Under the pieces are notes generated by a model, which saw only the letters and a list, made by a program, of their open reading frames with translations, did no database searches and had not been told where the DNA came from. The translations under genes and the position numbers were made by a program. A stretch of 26,153 nt of DNA from a virus: positions 1-26,153 of the IMG/VR virus record IMGVR_UViG_3300044712_002647; one strand, 5' to 3'. The stretch's first letter is position 1. Each line of letters opens with the position of its first letter. Shown piece by piece: positions 12,372 through 21,574 of this stretch.

Positions 12372-12399
12372 TTGACAATGCGAGTTACAATATTATAGA
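12372..12399 (+). promoter_or_regulatory. Divergent promoter pair between 12362 and 12431
   Basis: On the plus strand TTGACA (12372-12377) is followed after 16 bp by TATAGA (12394-12399), a good sigma70-type promoter reading toward the methyltransferase. On the minus strand the consensus -10 TATAAT lies at 12392-12397, overlapping it and reading toward the small gene at 12051, with only a weak -35. The two -10 boxes share bases, so the promoters should be mutually exclusive. Confidence 0.6.
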
Positions 12400-12430
12400 T
12401 TATTTGTTCTAATATTGGTAGAGGTGAAAA

Positions 12431-13078
12431 ATGGAAACCATCGGGGGTGCGACTTTGTACCAGGGGGATTGCCTGGAGATCATGCCGACGCTGGCTGCCG
12501 GAAGTATAGACCTGGTGCTGGCAGATCTGCCTTATGGGGTGACGGCCTGTGAGTGGGACAAGATCCTGCCATTCGAACGATTGTGGCCAGAATATGAGCG
12601 GCTGCTCAAGCCGGCAGGGTCCGTGGTGCTGACGGCCAGTCAGCCTTTCACGACCAAGTTGATCAACTCGAAGCCGGAATGGTTCAGGTACGAGCTGGTG
12701 TGGAAGAAGAACACGGTGACGGGGTTCCTGAACGCAAAAAAGCAGCCGCTGCGCAATCACGAGAATGTGTTGGTGTTCTCGCCGGCGAAGACCGGGAAGA
12801 TGGTCTACCATCCCCAGGGGTTGATCACGGTGGACCGGTGGAAGAAGACGTCAAAGGCGCGGATCTACGGCCGGCAGGCGACCGGGGAAAAGAAGCACGT
12901 GGCCTGGACGAACTATCCTCGGTCGGTGTTGGAATTCAATTCTGAGGTGGACCGGCACCATCCGAGCCAGAAGCCGGTGGTGCTGATGGCGTATCTGATC
13001 CAAACGTTCAGCGATCCGGGCGGGGTGGTGCTGGATAACACGATGGGAAGCGGGTCCACGGGGGTGGCGGCGCTGTAG
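12431..13078 (+). CDS. DNA N4/N6 methyltransferase, truncated by an in-frame TAG
   Basis: 215 aa as read. The family transfers a methyl group from AdoMet to adenine or cytosine in DNA. Motif IV is DLPYG at about residues 33-37, and motif I follows near the C-terminus (DNTMGSGSTGVAAL, about residues 202-215), the order of beta-class N6_N4_Mtase enzymes. The frame stops at TAG (13076) exactly after GVAAL, whereas homologues continue with G-R-x-F-x-G-x-E and an A-x-x-R-I helix. Those residues are still present in frame after the stop. GAGGTG and a good promoter precede the ATG. The truncated protein lacks part of the AdoMet-binding region, so it is probably inactive unless the TAG is read through. 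Other genes here use TAG as a normal stop. Confidence 0.8.
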   Translation: METIGGATLYQGDCLEIMPTLAAGSIDLVLADLPYGVTACEWDKILPFERLWPEYERLLKPAGSVVLTASQPFTTKLINSKPEWFRYELVWKKNTVTGFLNAKKQPLRNHENVLVFSPAKTGKMVYHPQGLITVDRWKKTSKARIYGRQATGEKKHVAWTNYPRSVLEFNSEVDRHHPSQKPVVLMAYLIQTFSDPGGVVLDNTMGSGSTGVAAL

Positions 13079-15624: not shown

Positions 15625-17265
15625 CTAAATATCCAGTATTCCTTGTTCTGGACTTTGCTTTTTCACCTTCGCAGCTTGCTTGAACGCACCCGCTCCTGAC
15701 GGAGGCATTTTCACCTCTGCGCCAGCAAGGATCGCTTCAATCGTGAGGATTTGAATGCGGGGGTAATCCTTGTTCCAGAGCTCGGAGTGATAGTGTCCGG
15801 CAGTAGCGGCTTCTGTGTTCATTTCACGGGTGGATGGCTCGAGAGTGATAAAAACGCCGATCGCAGCCTGCTCGCGTTCGATAGTGCCTTTGAGATCCCT
15901 GATCATCCCGCTGTTAACGTTGCCACCTTTGACCTGGATAATGACACGCTTGACGCCGCCTTTGGGATCATCCAAGAAGTTGATCACGCCATCAATACCG
16001 CGATCTGCACCTTTCTTGCCGACTTTGCTACCTTCTGTCCCTCCCTGGGGACGCGCTTCGATGAGGGATAACGCCCACCATTGGAACTGGTATTTATCAT
16101 CCCGGGCAAGCTGTTGTGCGCCGGCCAGATCTTCAGGTTCGCCGATGACCTGGTAATCCTTCTTTGGCTCCAAACCAAACATATCTTTAAGACGTGCTTT
16201 GTGCATGGCGATGGCCAGGTGGGTGATATCGATGCCGATCCACTGCCGGCCAAGATTTTGAGCTGCACTGATGCAAGTACCACAACCGCTGAAGGGGTCG
16301 AGAACGACATCACCAGGATTTGAGGAGGCGCTGATAATGCGTTCGAGCAGCGCTAGTGGTTTTTGAGTTGGATATCCAAGCCTTTCTGCGGCTTGAGCCT
16401 GGATCGGTGGAATATCGTCCCAAAGATTCGACACCACAGGTTCTTTTACTTCATCAAGGAAAATTTTTCGAGAAGGGCGGCCGTTTGCGCTCCAATAGAG
16501 TTTCCCAGCTTTATCCAGTTCTTCCAGCTTCCCTTTCTCCATCATCCATCCATAAGTCGGTGTATATCCCTTGTACTCATAGATGAGATTTTGTCGAATA
16601 CCGATGCCTTGGTTTCTTTCAACTAAATGAAGCCGGTAACGGCGACCATTTTGATCAAAATGACGGTAAAAATCATCTACATATTTCGTATCATGGCTGG
16701 TTCTTGGTGGAATGAAAAGATACTGAGCGCTTTTTGAATAAAACAAGAGAGTATCGGTTATATCCCCCAACTTTCTCGTAGTTGTATTGTGAGCGGTAGT
16801 CCGTTTCCAAACGATTTCATTCAAAAAGTTCTGTGGTCCAAAAATCGTATCCAAGATCATCTTCAGATAATGACTGGCAGTTGGATCACAGTGAAGATAG
16901 AGAGAGCCGGTCGGCTTGAGCACCCGGTGGAGCTCGACCAGTCGAGCCGCCATCATCACCAGGTAGGCCATCATCTGGTTGGCACCGATGAATTGATGCA
17001 AGGCACCGATCATATTCCCCACGCCGCCTGGGGCGTTGCGTACCAGCTGCTCGTACGTCTCCTGGGCAGATGGTCCCCAGTGCCAGGCGTCATCGAAGGC
17101 GGCGATCTGGGCGTCTGACTGGCCACTTTCATCTTTGAAAAGCACGTTATAGGAGCGGTTTGAATTGAATGGCGGGTCCAGGTAGATCAAATCAACCGAT
17201 TCATCTTTGATATGTTCTCGAAGGACCTTTAGGTTATCGCCGTAATATAGAGTATTCATCGCCAT
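15625..17265 (-). CDS. DNA methyltransferase fused to a restriction endonuclease-like domain
   Basis: About 546 aa. The N-terminal ~370 residues form a beta-class N6_N4_Mtase: LDPPFNSN near residue 30 (motif IV), and VVLDPFSGCGT near residue 320 (motif I), with GRQWIGIDI after it. Residues ~400-520 carry an Mrr/PD-(D/E)xK-like nuclease: RGIDGVINF, then VKRVIIQVKGGNV, where the Asp and the Gln-x-Lys are the likely catalytic residues, then GTIEREQAAIGVFITL. One protein could therefore both modify and cut DNA. The start is uncertain (GTG 17277, ATG 17265, ATG 17259; none has a strong site; family members usually begin MNxLYYGDN). It is 16 bp upstream of the nuclease gene, as one operon. Confidence 0.8.
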   Translation of the reverse strand: MAMNTLYYGDNLKVLREHIKDESVDLIYLDPPFNSNRSYNVLFKDESGQSDAQIAAFDDAWHWGPSAQETYEQLVRNAPGGVGNMIGALHQFIGANQMMAYLVMMAARLVELHRVLKPTGSLYLHCDPTASHYLKMILDTIFGPQNFLNEIVWKRTTAHNTTTRKLGDITDTLLFYSKSAQYLFIPPRTSHDTKYVDDFYRHFDQNGRRYRLHLVERNQGIGIRQNLIYEYKGYTPTYGWMMEKGKLEELDKAGKLYWSANGRPSRKIFLDEVKEPVVSNLWDDIPPIQAQAAERLGYPTQKPLALLERIISASSNPGDVVLDPFSGCGTCISAAQNLGRQWIGIDITHLAIAMHKARLKDMFGLEPKKDYQVIGEPEDLAGAQQLARDDKYQFQWWALSLIEARPQGGTEGSKVGKKGADRGIDGVINFLDDPKGGVKRVIIQVKGGNVNSGMIRDLKGTIEREQAAIGVFITLEPSTREMNTEAATAGHYHSELWNKDYPRIQILTIEAILAGAEVKMPPSGAGAFKQAAKVKKQSPEQGILDI

Positions 17266-17283
17266 CCAATTATTCACTACTTA

Positions 17284-17493
17284 TTAAATCAAGCCTGAGC
17301 ATGAGACAAGAACTGCGATCAAGCCAAAGATGATCGAGATAATAATTATTATCTTGATGGTGCTCAGATGCCCCTCAGTCTTTTGCGAAGATTCGAGGAT
17401 CTTTGTATCGATCTCAATGAGACGGTCCAGCCGTTGATTGAGAGCCATCGTGTTCATCGATGAGTTATCAGTTGATTGAGCGTTTTTTTCCAT
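17284..17493 (-). CDS. Small membrane protein
   Basis: 69 aa. Residues ~1-45 are polar and contain a helical stretch (LNQRLDRLIEIDTKILESSQKTEGHL); residues ~46-69 form a hydrophobic helix (IKIIIIISIIFGLIAVLVSC), ending close to the C-terminus. AAGGAAAGGGG lies upstream. It precedes the methyltransferase-endonuclease gene with an 18-bp gap on the same strand. It could be tail-anchored. It is not recognised as a holin: there is one membrane helix and it sits in the lysogenic operon. Confidence 0.6.
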   Translation of the reverse strand: MEKNAQSTDNSSMNTMALNQRLDRLIEIDTKILESSQKTEGHLSTIKIIIIISIIFGLIAVLVSCSGLI

Positions 17494-17510: not shown

Positions 17511-17539
17511 TTGCATAAATAGTACGCTTGTTCTATAAT
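17511..17539 (+). promoter_or_regulatory. Plus-strand promoter between the small membrane protein and repressor genes
   Basis: TTGCAT (17511-17516), 17-bp spacer, TATAAT (17534-17539), then AGGAGG (17548-17553) and ATG at 17558. The order and distances are those of a complete promoter plus ribosome-binding site, yet what follows on the plus strand is mostly the antisense of the repressor gene. Confidence 0.6.
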
Positions 17540-17557
17540 AATTCTCAGGAGGAAAAG

Positions 17558-17773
17558 ATGTTCCTGACCATTACCGACCCTAAGTACCCGGCCTATTCGT
17601 TGATGGTGACGTTCAAGCCGTACTTGCCAAACGATTCGCGAATGACCTTGCGGCCCTCCTCTGAATCTGATAATACTTTACGATCAACCAGGGCTGAGTC
17701 TATCTCGGCCATGGCTTTTCGAAAGCGATCTTGTAAGTCTGGGGGGAGTGAAGAAATACTGACAGCATCATAA
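17558..17773 (+). CDS. Doubtful short ORF antisense to the repressor 3' end
   Basis: 71 aa, starting MFLTITDPKYPAYSLMV. Only the first ~12 codons lie outside the repressor gene; the rest is its antisense strand. It has a good promoter (17511-17539) and an AGGAGG site four bases before the ATG, so it is probably translated at least in part. It may be the surviving start of a gene cut away by recombination, or a deliberate antisense transcript that lowers repressor expression. No family is recognised. Confidence 0.3.
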   Translation: MFLTITDPKYPAYSLMVTFKPYLPNDSRMTLRPSSESDNTLRSTRAESISAMAFRKRSCKSGGSEEILTAS

Positions 17774-18039
17774 TTCGGCTCGCTAGGCCCGGGCATTCCT
17801 AAAATCGTATAAACTTCGTAACCAAATTTCTCAACAAGGGCGGAAATATTTTTTGAGTTTGTTGGAATTTTCCCGTTCTTCTTCATCCATTGCGACATCA
17901 GGCTGGTGGAAACGCCAAGCATGGCAGCAAATTCTGTGATCGATTTATCTTGACCGATGGCATCCCCCCGCCAGTCAATATATTTTCGAGTCAACCATTC
18001 AGAGAATTCTTGTTTCACAATCCAATTATACATATTCAT
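17593..18039 (-). CDS. Cro/CI-type transcriptional repressor (HTH_XRE-like)
   Basis: 148 aa. A helix-turn-helix lies at about residues 32-58 (KSITEFAAMLGVSTSLMSQWMKKNGKIP), with ALVEKFGYEVYTILGMP following as the last helix of the domain. The C-terminal half is helical (DLQDRFRKAMAEIDSALVDR) and carries no visible Ser-Lys LexA-type protease, so it is not an obvious RecA-cleaved CI. It faces the early operon across an intergenic operator region (18040-18129), the classic lysogeny-switch layout. The ATG at 18039 lacks a clear ribosome-binding site. It is likely to bind the 18084-18110 inverted repeat. Confidence 0.8.
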   Translation of the reverse strand: MNMYNWIVKQEFSEWLTRKYIDWRGDAIGQDKSITEFAAMLGVSTSLMSQWMKKNGKIPTNSKNISALVEKFGYEVYTILGMPGPSEPNYDAVSISSLPPDLQDRFRKAMAEIDSALVDRKVLSDSEEGRKVIRESFGKYGLNVTINE

Positions 18040-18060: not shown

Positions 18061-18089
18061 TTGACAATCATCAACTGTCGTGCTATATT
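18061..18089 (+). promoter_or_regulatory. Early operon promoter
   Basis: TTGACA (18061-18066), 17-bp spacer, TATATT (18084-18089). It reads rightward into the replication genes. The predicted start lies near 18096, inside the inverted repeat that overlaps the -10 box. Confidence 0.75.
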
Positions 18090-18110: not shown

Positions 18111-18129
18111 AACTATGGTGAAAGAGATC

Positions 18130-18399
18130 ATGAAAACAGCATCCTACGTACTTGAAGAAAAGCAGATCGAATTTGTAGAGAACGAAGCCAAGGCGCGGGC
18201 AGAAGCCACGCACCAGGCCTCTGCTTCCTCCTCGGCTGTAATGCGGCACATCCTTTCATCGATGATGGAAACGCAGATCCCGGGCAAGCGGATCGTGGCG
18301 TACAAGGGGAGCGACGGGATCCTGCATCTTGATCCTGATTTCGCAAAGACGGGTGACGGTCCTGTTTCACAAGAACAGGTTAGCACGAATCAGCAGTAG
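18130..18399 (+). CDS. Probable ribbon-helix-helix regulator, first early gene
   Basis: 89 aa from the ATG at 18130, preceded by GAAAGAG. An in-frame ATG at 18115 would begin only ~20 bases after the transcription start and has no site. The first 45 residues (TASYVLEEKQIEFVENEAKARAE, then ASSSAVMRHILSSM) have a strand followed by two helices, as in CopG/Arc-like ribbon-helix-helix proteins. Its place opposite the repressor, where phages put Cro or another antirepressor, supports a regulatory role. TAG stop. Confidence 0.55.
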   Translation: MKTASYVLEEKQIEFVENEAKARAEATHQASASSSAVMRHILSSMMETQIPGKRIVAYKGSDGILHLDPDFAKTGDGPVSQEQVSTNQQ

Positions 18400-18453: not shown

Positions 18454-18675
18454 ATGGGAGTACCGAGAACATGGCCAACGATCGCGGCTGATGACCGCGA
18501 CACGGCGGCGGAGTACGTGAATAATGGAGCGGGCCAACTGGCCAGAGTGCGCAACAGAGTACCGAACGAATATCGCGGCGACATTCTGGAGATCGAATTG
18601 AATCTGGCCAACGCGTTGAGGCTGTTAGAGAAACACGGCGCCAAGACCAGGATCCCCGACCCGCTCCGCCCTTGA
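18454..18675 (+). CDS. Small hypothetical early protein
   Basis: 73 aa, with AAAGGAG close upstream of the ATG. Basic and helical (VNNGAGQLARVRNRVPNE, then ILEIELNLANALRLLEKHG). No family is recognised. It is the last protein gene before the ~780-bp structured noncoding stretch, so that stretch is probably transcribed downstream of it from the 18061 promoter. Confidence 0.6.
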   Translation: MGVPRTWPTIAADDRDTAAEYVNNGAGQLARVRNRVPNEYRGDILEIELNLANALRLLEKHGAKTRIPDPLRP

Positions 18676-18813: not shown

Positions 18814-18886
18814 TGCGGGATGGAGGAGAGGTCACCTCGCTGGGCTCATAACCCTGAGATCGCTGGTTCGAATCCAGCTCCCGCTA
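18814..18886 (+). tRNA. tRNA-Met (CAT), initiator-like
   Basis: A full 73-nt cloverleaf with standard spacing: acceptor TGCGGGA/TCCCGCT, U8, D-stem GAGG/CCTC with an 8-nt GG-containing loop, anticodon arm with loop CTCATAA (anticodon CAT at 18847-18849), 5-nt variable loop, and T-arm GCTGG-TTCGAAT-CCAGC. Three hallmarks of bacterial initiator tRNA are present: an unpaired 1-72 position (T-T), three G-C pairs at the bottom of the anticodon stem (GGG/CCC), and A11-U24 in the D-stem. One more mismatch lies in the anticodon stem (T-T). CCA is not encoded (CTG follows the discriminator A). Confidence 0.75.
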
Positions 18887-18925
18887 CTGGCAAGACAGAT
18901 CTTTGAAAAATAAACAAGCAATGGA

Positions 18926-20435: not shown

Positions 20436-20681
20436 ATGGCAAAGATGATCATCCGCAGCATTCGAACACACGCTCGCACGGCGGGCGCCACGGTGAACGT
20501 CACCGGGATGTACCGCAAGCGCGGTCTGCAGCTCCCGGCAGAAGGTGAGACGCTGATCGTGGAGAATATCGCCAACGGCAAACGCTTCGCCGGCACTGTA
20601 ACCAAAGTGGATACGGTCACACGCTGTTACGACTTCCGGGTGGATCTGAGCCAGGAGATCACGGCAGAGGCGGCAGCGTGA
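20436..20681 (+). CDS. Small hypothetical protein in replication operon
   Basis: 81 aa from the ATG at 20436, just after CAGGAG; a TTG at 20409 in the same frame overlaps the previous gene. The sequence is short strands with basic residues (MIIRSIRTHARTAGATVNVTG, then ETLIVENIANGKRFAGTVTKVDTV), perhaps a small beta-barrel. It overlaps the next gene by 4 bp (GTGA). No family is recognised. Confidence 0.6.
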   Translation: MAKMIIRSIRTHARTAGATVNVTGMYRKRGLQLPAEGETLIVENIANGKRFAGTVTKVDTVTRCYDFRVDLSQEITAEAAA

Positions 20682-21574
20682 AGGGGCGCTCCTTCGTGCG
20701 GGAGATCCGCACCAGCGAGACGTTCGGCAAGCTGAGCTACCGCCAGCGGGACCTGTTCCACGGCCTGGTGGAAGTGGCTGACGACCAGGGCAGACTGGTG
20801 GGCAACCCGGCCTCTGTGCGGGCTGAGGTGTGGCGCTACGACGAGACGATCATCGTCCCCGAAACCCAGGCTGAGCTCGAAGTGCTGGCCAGCGGCAAGG
20901 ATCCGTTCATCAAGATCTACCAGGTGGAGGATAAAACCTACATCCAGATCATCAACTGGTGGAAATATCAGCGGATGGACTGGGCGGCGCCGAGCGCGTT
21001 CCCCGCGCCGGCAGGCTGGACGGACCGCGTGAAGATCAACGTCAAGGGCGGAAAAACCCTGATGGTCAATTGGGACAAGCCGGGCGGGTTCGATCAACCC
21101 GAAAGAGCTACGGCGGTAACTACCAAGGAAGGTGTCAAGGTAGGTACAGGGGTGGCTACCCCGCCAGCTACGGCGATAAAGAAGTTAAGCGAAGTTAAGG
21201 ATAAACCAAATAAAAAGAATATTAACCAATCCAATCCAACCGGGATACCCACCGGGCTTGACCCTGACCCTGTTCTGACCCCTGAAAAGGCAAAACGAGC
21301 GCTGGATCTTGCCCTCGGCGACCTTCGCCGCACGATGGGCCGAGCGGATTTTGATACCTGGGTGAAGCCGGCCGAGTTCTCCGGGATCTCCGGCAACCAG
21401 GTAGTGATCGCGGCCGGGAACGCATACGGCCGAGACTGGCTGGAGGGCCGGGTGAAGTCGACACTGACGAATTCGATGCGGGCTTACCTGGAGGATCCAG
21501 ACCTGGAGCTGCAGTTCGTTGTGGCTCCGATGGTCGACACGAGCCGTCAGCCGCGAACGGCGGCGGTTGGGTAA
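20678..21574 (+). CDS. Phage replication protein with DnaA domain I-like C-terminus
   Basis: 298 aa, GTG start overlapping the previous stop. Residues ~1-115 (TSETFGKLSYRQRDLFHGLVEVADDQGRLVGNPASVRAEVW) resemble phage replisome-organiser N-terminal winged-helix domains. Residues ~120-205 are a disordered Lys/Pro/Thr-rich linker. Residues ~205-283 (AKRALDLALGDLRRTMGRADFDTWVKPAEF, then VVIAAGNAYGRDWLEGR) match the DnaA N-terminal domain I: F-x-x-W-x-x-P and the N-x-x-x-x-x-W-L motif. No AAA+ or DnaA DNA-binding domain follows. It may load the host helicase through this DnaA-like domain at the phage origin. Confidence 0.7.
   Translation: MKGRSFVREIRTSETFGKLSYRQRDLFHGLVEVADDQGRLVGNPASVRAEVWRYDETIIVPETQAELEVLASGKDPFIKIYQVEDKTYIQIINWWKYQRMDWAAPSAFPAPAGWTDRVKINVKGGKTLMVNWDKPGGFDQPERATAVTTKEGVKVGTGVATPPATAIKKLSEVKDKPNKKNINQSNPTGIPTGLDPDPVLTPEKAKRALDLALGDLRRTMGRADFDTWVKPAEFSGISGNQVVIAAGNAYGRDWLEGRVKSTLTNSMRAYLEDPDLELQFVVAPMVDTSRQPRTAAVG

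Follow-up and report, generated by a model that had tools for sequence, protein, structure and literature searches.

What is a promoter with a ribosome-binding-like site doing just beyond the stop codon of a phage repressor gene, on the opposite strand and directed into that gene? We addressed this question in a 26.2-kb virus record, the whole of which was analysed and is referred to below as the window. The reading that we consider best, with a probability of about 0.52, is that this is a LexA-repressed, SOS-controlled antisense promoter that would shut down synthesis of the repressor in cis.

Source phage and probable host

The major head protein encoded in the window was assigned to phrog_283, and because relatives of this protein are annotated as P22-type coat protein, the window appears to come from a tailed phage. 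A related capsid gene was present at 20 loci in cellular genomes, with an identity of 65–77% at five of them and 45–55% at the other 15; the five closer loci belong to four Anaerolineae (Anaerolinea, Anaerolineaceae, Pelolinea and Bellilinea) and one Armatimonadetes MAG. Since the closest cellular relatives of the capsid gene are mainly from Anaerolineae, the host of the phage is probably, although not certainly, an Anaerolineae (Chloroflexota) bacterium.

Several other genes of the window could be assigned. In a single ORF (positions 15625–17277) a DNA methylase (N6_N4_Mtase) is combined with a restriction-endonuclease-like domain at the C terminus (Mrr_cat, NA-iREase1), and a second methyltransferase of 215 aa (12431–13078) shares the PHROG of this methylase. 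The early region contains a tRNA-Met gene (cat) at 18814–18887, and a replication-initiation-like protein that matches the DnaA N-terminal domain is encoded at 20678–21574.

A promoter faces the 3' end of the repressor gene

The features of the locus are as follows.

17284–17493, − strand: gene for a small protein with a hydrophobic C-terminal part, 3' of the repressor gene; a relative occupies the same place in the related phage G033
17511–17516, + strand: −35 element TTGCAT, from the sequence
17520–17535, no strand assigned: LexA-type operator TAGTAC-GCTT-GTTCTA, covering part of the promoter spacer and the start of the −10 element; rank 1 with a lexA matrix
17534–17539, + strand: −10 element TATAAT, from the sequence
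17546, + strand: predicted transcription start, placed 7 nt past the −10 element
17547–17552, + strand: ribosome-binding-like AGGAGG, from the sequence; not kept in all relatives
17558–17773, + strand: 71-aa ORF antisense to the 3' end of the repressor gene, probably incidental
17593–18039, − strand: HTH repressor without a detectable S24 peptidase domain (Pfam, PHROGs and structure model), the putative target of the antisense promoter
18061–18089, + strand: TTGACA-17-TATATT, an early promoter (PR-like) that is collinear with the antisense one
18115–18399, + strand: first of the early genes, oriented divergently to the repressor gene, with a weak relative in G033
18454–18675, + strand: second early gene, with a relative in G033

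The first-pass annotation had described a TTGCAT-17-TATAAT promoter followed by AGGAGG and an ATG, directed against the 3' part of the repressor gene and opening a frame of 71 residues antisense to it. Each of these elements proved to be where it had been placed, on the + strand, the spacer between TTGCAT and TATAAT being 17 bp, and both the promoter and the ORF indeed oppose a repressor gene that lies on the − strand. The ATG that opens the 71-codon ORF (17558–17560) follows AGGAGG after a gap of 5 nt, and, given a start at about 17546, AGGAGG would form the extreme 5' end of the RNA. The −10 element sits outside the repressor gene. Note that TTGCAT agrees with TTGACA at only three of six positions, and a standard promoter scan, with a threshold of at least four of six, therefore omits it. 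The region holds six promoter-like sites compared with a mean of 4.6 in shuffles, which is not in excess of chance, and the promoter of the window taken alone is no more than chance would provide. What takes it beyond chance is its conservation in related phages.

The antisense promoter is conserved in divergent phages

Relatives of the window were reached through capsid searches because queries with the repressor and the ParB-like protein yielded nothing: the repressor had no match in viral_contigs, phages or plasmids, the ParB-like protein had none in viral_contigs, and a search with the repressor of G033 returned its own record as the sole match. There were 109 capsid relatives in viral_contigs, of which 80 were kept, and 50 of these 80 were searched for the repressor and the promoter pattern (the shortest contigs made up most of the other 30). 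A homologue of the repressor was present in five of the 50 records (G013, G014, G030, G032 and G033), the repressors of G013 and G014 being identical; L198, whose repressor is 48% identical to that of G014, represents a further lineage.

In five of the six repressor lineages (the window, G033, G030, G014/G013 and L198) an antisense promoter lies just past the stop codon of the homologous repressor gene and is directed into its 3' end, even though the repressors of the relatives are only 23–32% identical to that of the window. The promoters of the relatives read TTGCTT-17-TATAAT in G033, TTGCTA-17-TATAAT in G030, TTGCAA-17-TATAAT in G014 and TTGATT-17-TAAACT in L198, and an Anaerolineaceae MAG carries a near-identical copy of the G014 promoter. 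The TTG of the −35 element occupies the identical position in all six aligned sequences, and the −10 element is an exact TATAAT in the window, G033, G030, G014 and the MAG, and TAAACT in L198. G032 has a related repressor gene but no such promoter, and the promoter was found at the repressor gene in none of five more distant repressor-like loci (in four of 396 Anaerolineae genomes).

The search pattern was built from the window, G033 and G030; no sequence of G014/G013, L198 or the copy in the MAG contributed to it. Allowing at most two mismatches, the pattern gave five hits in the 50 records, four of them at the 3' end of a repressor gene (the fifth, in G026, is not at a repressor gene), and the reversed pattern, used as a control, gave none in the same records. 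The locus has one of the features expected of a cis-antisense RNA regulator, namely a conserved promoter on the opposite strand that is directed into the putative target gene.

The promoter contains a putative LexA-type operator

The earlier reading had overlooked the main clue to function, the inverted repeat TAGTAC-GCTT-GTTCTA (17520–17535). This repeat in the promoter spacer has the general form TAGAAC-N4-GTTCTA, and PMC3323433 describes GAAC-N4-GTTC as the LexA box in Bacillus subtilis, with an extension to Gram-positive bacteria. A lexA gene scored above the curated cut-off in 55 of 60 Anaerolineae genomes. Among the best-scoring 30 of the matches from these 60 genomes, 22 had TAGAACNNNNGTTCTA within two mismatches in the lexA upstream region, compared with 0.7% of shuffles. 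Anaerolineae lexA genes have GAAC-N4-GTTC between the −35 and −10 elements; the boxes are often laid out as TTGACA-TAGAACNNNNGTTCGTG-TATAAT, many of them lie between TTGAC and TATAAT, and the lexA upstream region of Bellilinea has the same type of box. The phage operator overlaps its promoter as the boxes of lexA promoters do, but is displaced towards the −10 element.

A lexA matrix was made from 29 boxes (the 30 minus L167 and L173, plus the Bellilinea box). With this matrix the antisense site ranked first in the window (score 15.0; next best 13.7), in the G030 record (15.6; next 6.6), in the G033 record (15.0; next 11.8) and in the 6.4-kb L198 locus (11.1), and matched weakly in the G014 record (rank 16, score 4.3). 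In a leave-one-out comparison real lexA boxes scored 14.0–22.0, and because the phage boxes (12.1–15.7 for four of them and 5.3 for G014 in this comparison) are at or below the low end of that range, the phage sites are weak to moderate LexA-type sites. The best score in 200 shuffled windows averaged 10.3 and reached 20.6, so a score of 15.0 somewhere in the window is not rare by itself; what counts is that the top score falls on the antisense promoter, and does so repeatedly in relatives. (Note that the lexA boxes were selected for their fit to a pattern that had been recognized in the phages beforehand, so their choice favours similarity and the scores should be read with caution.)

Two further LexA-like sites were observed elsewhere. 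One, at 12396–12411 (score 10.7, rank 4 in the window), lies just upstream of the methyltransferase ORF at 12431–13078; the other, in a related phage (L022 1630–1665), is a box (14.9) that accompanies an intergenic TTGACA-17-TAAAAT and has no relative of the repressor near it.

A repressor without a detected self-cleaving domain

The protein encoded at 17593–18039 had a weak HTH-like match in Pfam (best E 0.019, under the curated cut-off) and matched phrog_8, transcriptional regulator, in PHROGs (E 6.7e-08); its structure model is all-helical and of low confidence (mean pLDDT 64.8). We infer that it is the lysogeny repressor from its HTH, its location and the divergent early genes. An S24 domain was not found in Pfam and PHROGs searches, and in this the protein differs from repressors of the lambda CI type, which have a C-terminal S24 peptidase domain. 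Both this result and the all-helical model would fit a repressor whose inactivation does not depend on self-cleavage. With regard to its start (18016–18039), a TATAAT at 18030–18025, possibly the −10 element of the repressor promoter, lies past the listed repressor ATG, and a leaderless start at the GTG at 18018–18016 is possible.

In a lysogen, host LexA would occupy the operator between the −35 and −10 elements and keep the antisense promoter off. DNA damage would lead to cleavage of LexA, upon which transcription would initiate at about 17546 and enter the repressor gene in the direction opposite to that of the gene itself; repressor synthesis would then drop through collision with opposing RNA polymerase together with pairing of the antisense RNA with repressor mRNA. 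The antisense RNA may continue over some 570 nt and reach the early genes, the first of which begins at 18115; no strong terminator was found on that strand ahead of them, although a weak hairpin-plus-T candidate at 17692–17710 counts against the proposal. Because the repressor has no detected self-cleaving domain, the antisense promoter would stand in for repressor cleavage as the link between damage and induction. LexA binding, transcription, the effect on the repressor and induction are what we infer here; the promoter sequence, the similarity of the operator, the orientation, the conservation and a repressor in which no S24 domain was detected are observed.

The 71-residue frame is probably a by-product

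The promoter could instead serve to make a small SOS-induced antirepressor, namely the product of the 71-aa ORF, which would act in a Gifsy-like manner on the repressor whose gene it overlaps in antisense; we regard this as unlikely. LexA-controlled antirepressors of repressors that are not cleaved are already known (PMC3121763). Moreover, the first ATG after the promoter opens the same antisense register, third base facing third base, in all four lineages computed, starting 11–35 nt outside the repressor stop codon (promoter-strand scoring and ORF recoding covered the window, G033, G030 and G014, that is, all lineages with the promoter but L198), and a ribosome-binding-like sequence is strong in the window (AGGAGG-5-ATG) and moderate, though plausible, in G033 and G014. 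However, inspection of the sequences of the remaining two of the five lineages, G030 and L198, revealed no such site, and the N-termini of the antisense peptides differ among lineages. Upon synonymous recoding of the repressor, the probability that the antisense frame stays as long was 0.92 for the window, 0.77 for G033, 0.84 for G014 and 0.28 for G030 (where recoding used the open frame from a TTG, with an in-frame stop upstream, of a repressor that is possibly 5'-truncated). Thus in three of the four lineages tested the frame is open because of the amino acids of the repressor, G030 being less clear. Within the overlap the G014 and MAG copies differ by four changes, none of which affects the repressor sequence; one of them alters the peptide, the other three being silent in the antisense frame as well. 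The model of the 71-aa peptide is poor (mean pLDDT 62.7, pTM 0.24), with a predicted hairpin in the first 20 residues (pLDDT near 88). A protein family for the ORF was rejected because the peptide had no match in Pfam or PHROGs.

The 71-aa ORF is therefore best described as probably a by-product, and what we take to be conserved is the RNA, or transcription as such, as opposed to the peptide. A dual-purpose gene, in which the RNA from one SOS promoter would both silence the repressor in cis and encode an antirepressor peptide on the opposite strand of its target, strikes us as quite improbable. The first-pass annotation had proposed either antisense control of lysogeny or the start of a lost gene. 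The former is supported by the fact that promoter, operator and orientation are conserved over divergent phages; the latter was rejected, since recoding keeps the frame in three of four lineages, neither the N-terminus nor the ribosome-binding site is conserved, and no family matched the peptide.

Other readings of the operator and promoter

The main role of an SOS promoter at this position might be to transcribe the early operon, with transcription across the repressor gene being incidental, which seems to us rather unlikely. A near-perfect early promoter lies in the same direction, about 530–550 nt downstream, in all five lineages (window, G033, G030, G014 and L198), and no strong terminator was found on the antisense strand between the antisense promoter and the early genes in these lineages (weak candidates are a hairpin-plus-T at 17692–17710 in the window and one in G014, L086 1782–1764). 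Against this, some 500 nt of mostly untranslated RNA intervenes, and a closer position would presumably suit such a role better.

Another regulator might bind the operator, the promoter then tuning the repressor level or answering a signal other than SOS. The boxes are imperfect, that of G014 being the worst, and similar promoters precede genes without an evident SOS role in Anaerolineae genomes. Nevertheless, the core of the operator and its place between the −35 and −10 elements are those of lexA promoters, and three whole phage records have it at rank 1 with the lexA matrix; we consider this reading unlikely.

That the operator serves the small − strand gene at 17284–17493 is very unlikely. 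The box lies about 25–30 nt before this gene in the window, G033 and G030, but by a rough promoter score the antisense promoter exceeds the best promoter on the opposite (−) strand in all four lineages scored (window, G033, G030 and G014), which led us to reject the gene as the owner of the operator; in G014, moreover, the nearest ORF of at least 45 aa on that side is about 90 nt past the box, yet the promoter is kept. Least credible of all is a chance AT-rich match without function, since, even though the window promoter alone falls within the range of shuffles, its position is conserved in five lineages.

Comparison with known systems

The LexA-repressed antisense promoter that we favour has counterparts in part. 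Tum of coliphage 186 is an SOS-controlled protein antirepressor; the present locus would likewise be a phage switch that acts on the lysogeny repressor under SOS control (predicted here), but through antisense transcription as opposed to a protein. Lambda OOP and P22 sar are phage antisense RNAs against phage regulators, as is predicted for the RNA described here, and neither is known to us as a LexA-controlled antisense RNA to the gene for its phage's lysogeny repressor. A phage whose repressor cannot be cleaved requires a different connection to DNA damage, and the phages of this kind that we know of use antirepressor proteins.

Gifsy prophages are reported to be induced without repressor cleavage by LexA-controlled antirepressors (PMC3121763). 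The likeness lies in a repressor that is not cleaved (here, one with no S24 domain detected) and a LexA-controlled phage locus (predicted here); the difference is that theirs is a separate protein gene outside the immunity region, whereas the promoter described here lies inside it and faces the repressor gene. In GIL01, host LexA is reported to repress the phage's own lytic promoters (PMC4551915, PMC6182141); host LexA would act directly on a phage promoter here too (binding is predicted), but the phage has an HTH repressor of its own, and it is the promoter opposing the gene for this repressor that carries the LexA-type site. An antisense RNA to lexA that arises by terminator read-through in Staphylococcus aureus (PMC8745188) also acts on an SOS-related repressor gene, but there a host gene and read-through are involved, as opposed to a predicted SOS promoter. 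A search of the open literature, with subscription papers mostly outside its scope, turned up LexA-controlled antirepressors and LexA-repressed phage promoters but no antisense promoter under LexA control that opposes the gene for a phage repressor, which is a weak negative.

If the favoured reading is true, a LexA-repressed antisense promoter would be a simpler link to damage that requires no protein, and it would point to how phages of Anaerolineae, hosts that have received little study, may switch out of lysogeny. Induction would then be expected to fail if the −10 element, outside the coding region, carried a single mutation.

Similar promoters in other contexts

The exact pattern occurs in 19 stretches of viral_contigs. 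Two of them, L100 (G030) and L107 (G033), are members of the present repressor group; the remaining 17 were rejected as instances of the same system, being similar promoters in different settings, seven of which precede one 546-aa ORF. In these seven near-identical stretches (L092, L095, L098, L099, L102, L104 and L109; the ORF is incomplete in L092) TTGCAAAAATAGAACGAAGGTGCTATAAT lies about 150 nt upstream of the ORF, so that this type of promoter also occurs in a different group of phages. A version with full symmetry, TTGCAATTATAGAAC-N4-GTTCTATAATTGCAA, is found at L105 4867–4900 and could fire bidirectionally, and in L148 and L152 (Bellilinea and the Anaerolineaceae MAG) a similar promoter precedes a gene for a related-looking hydrophobic protein.
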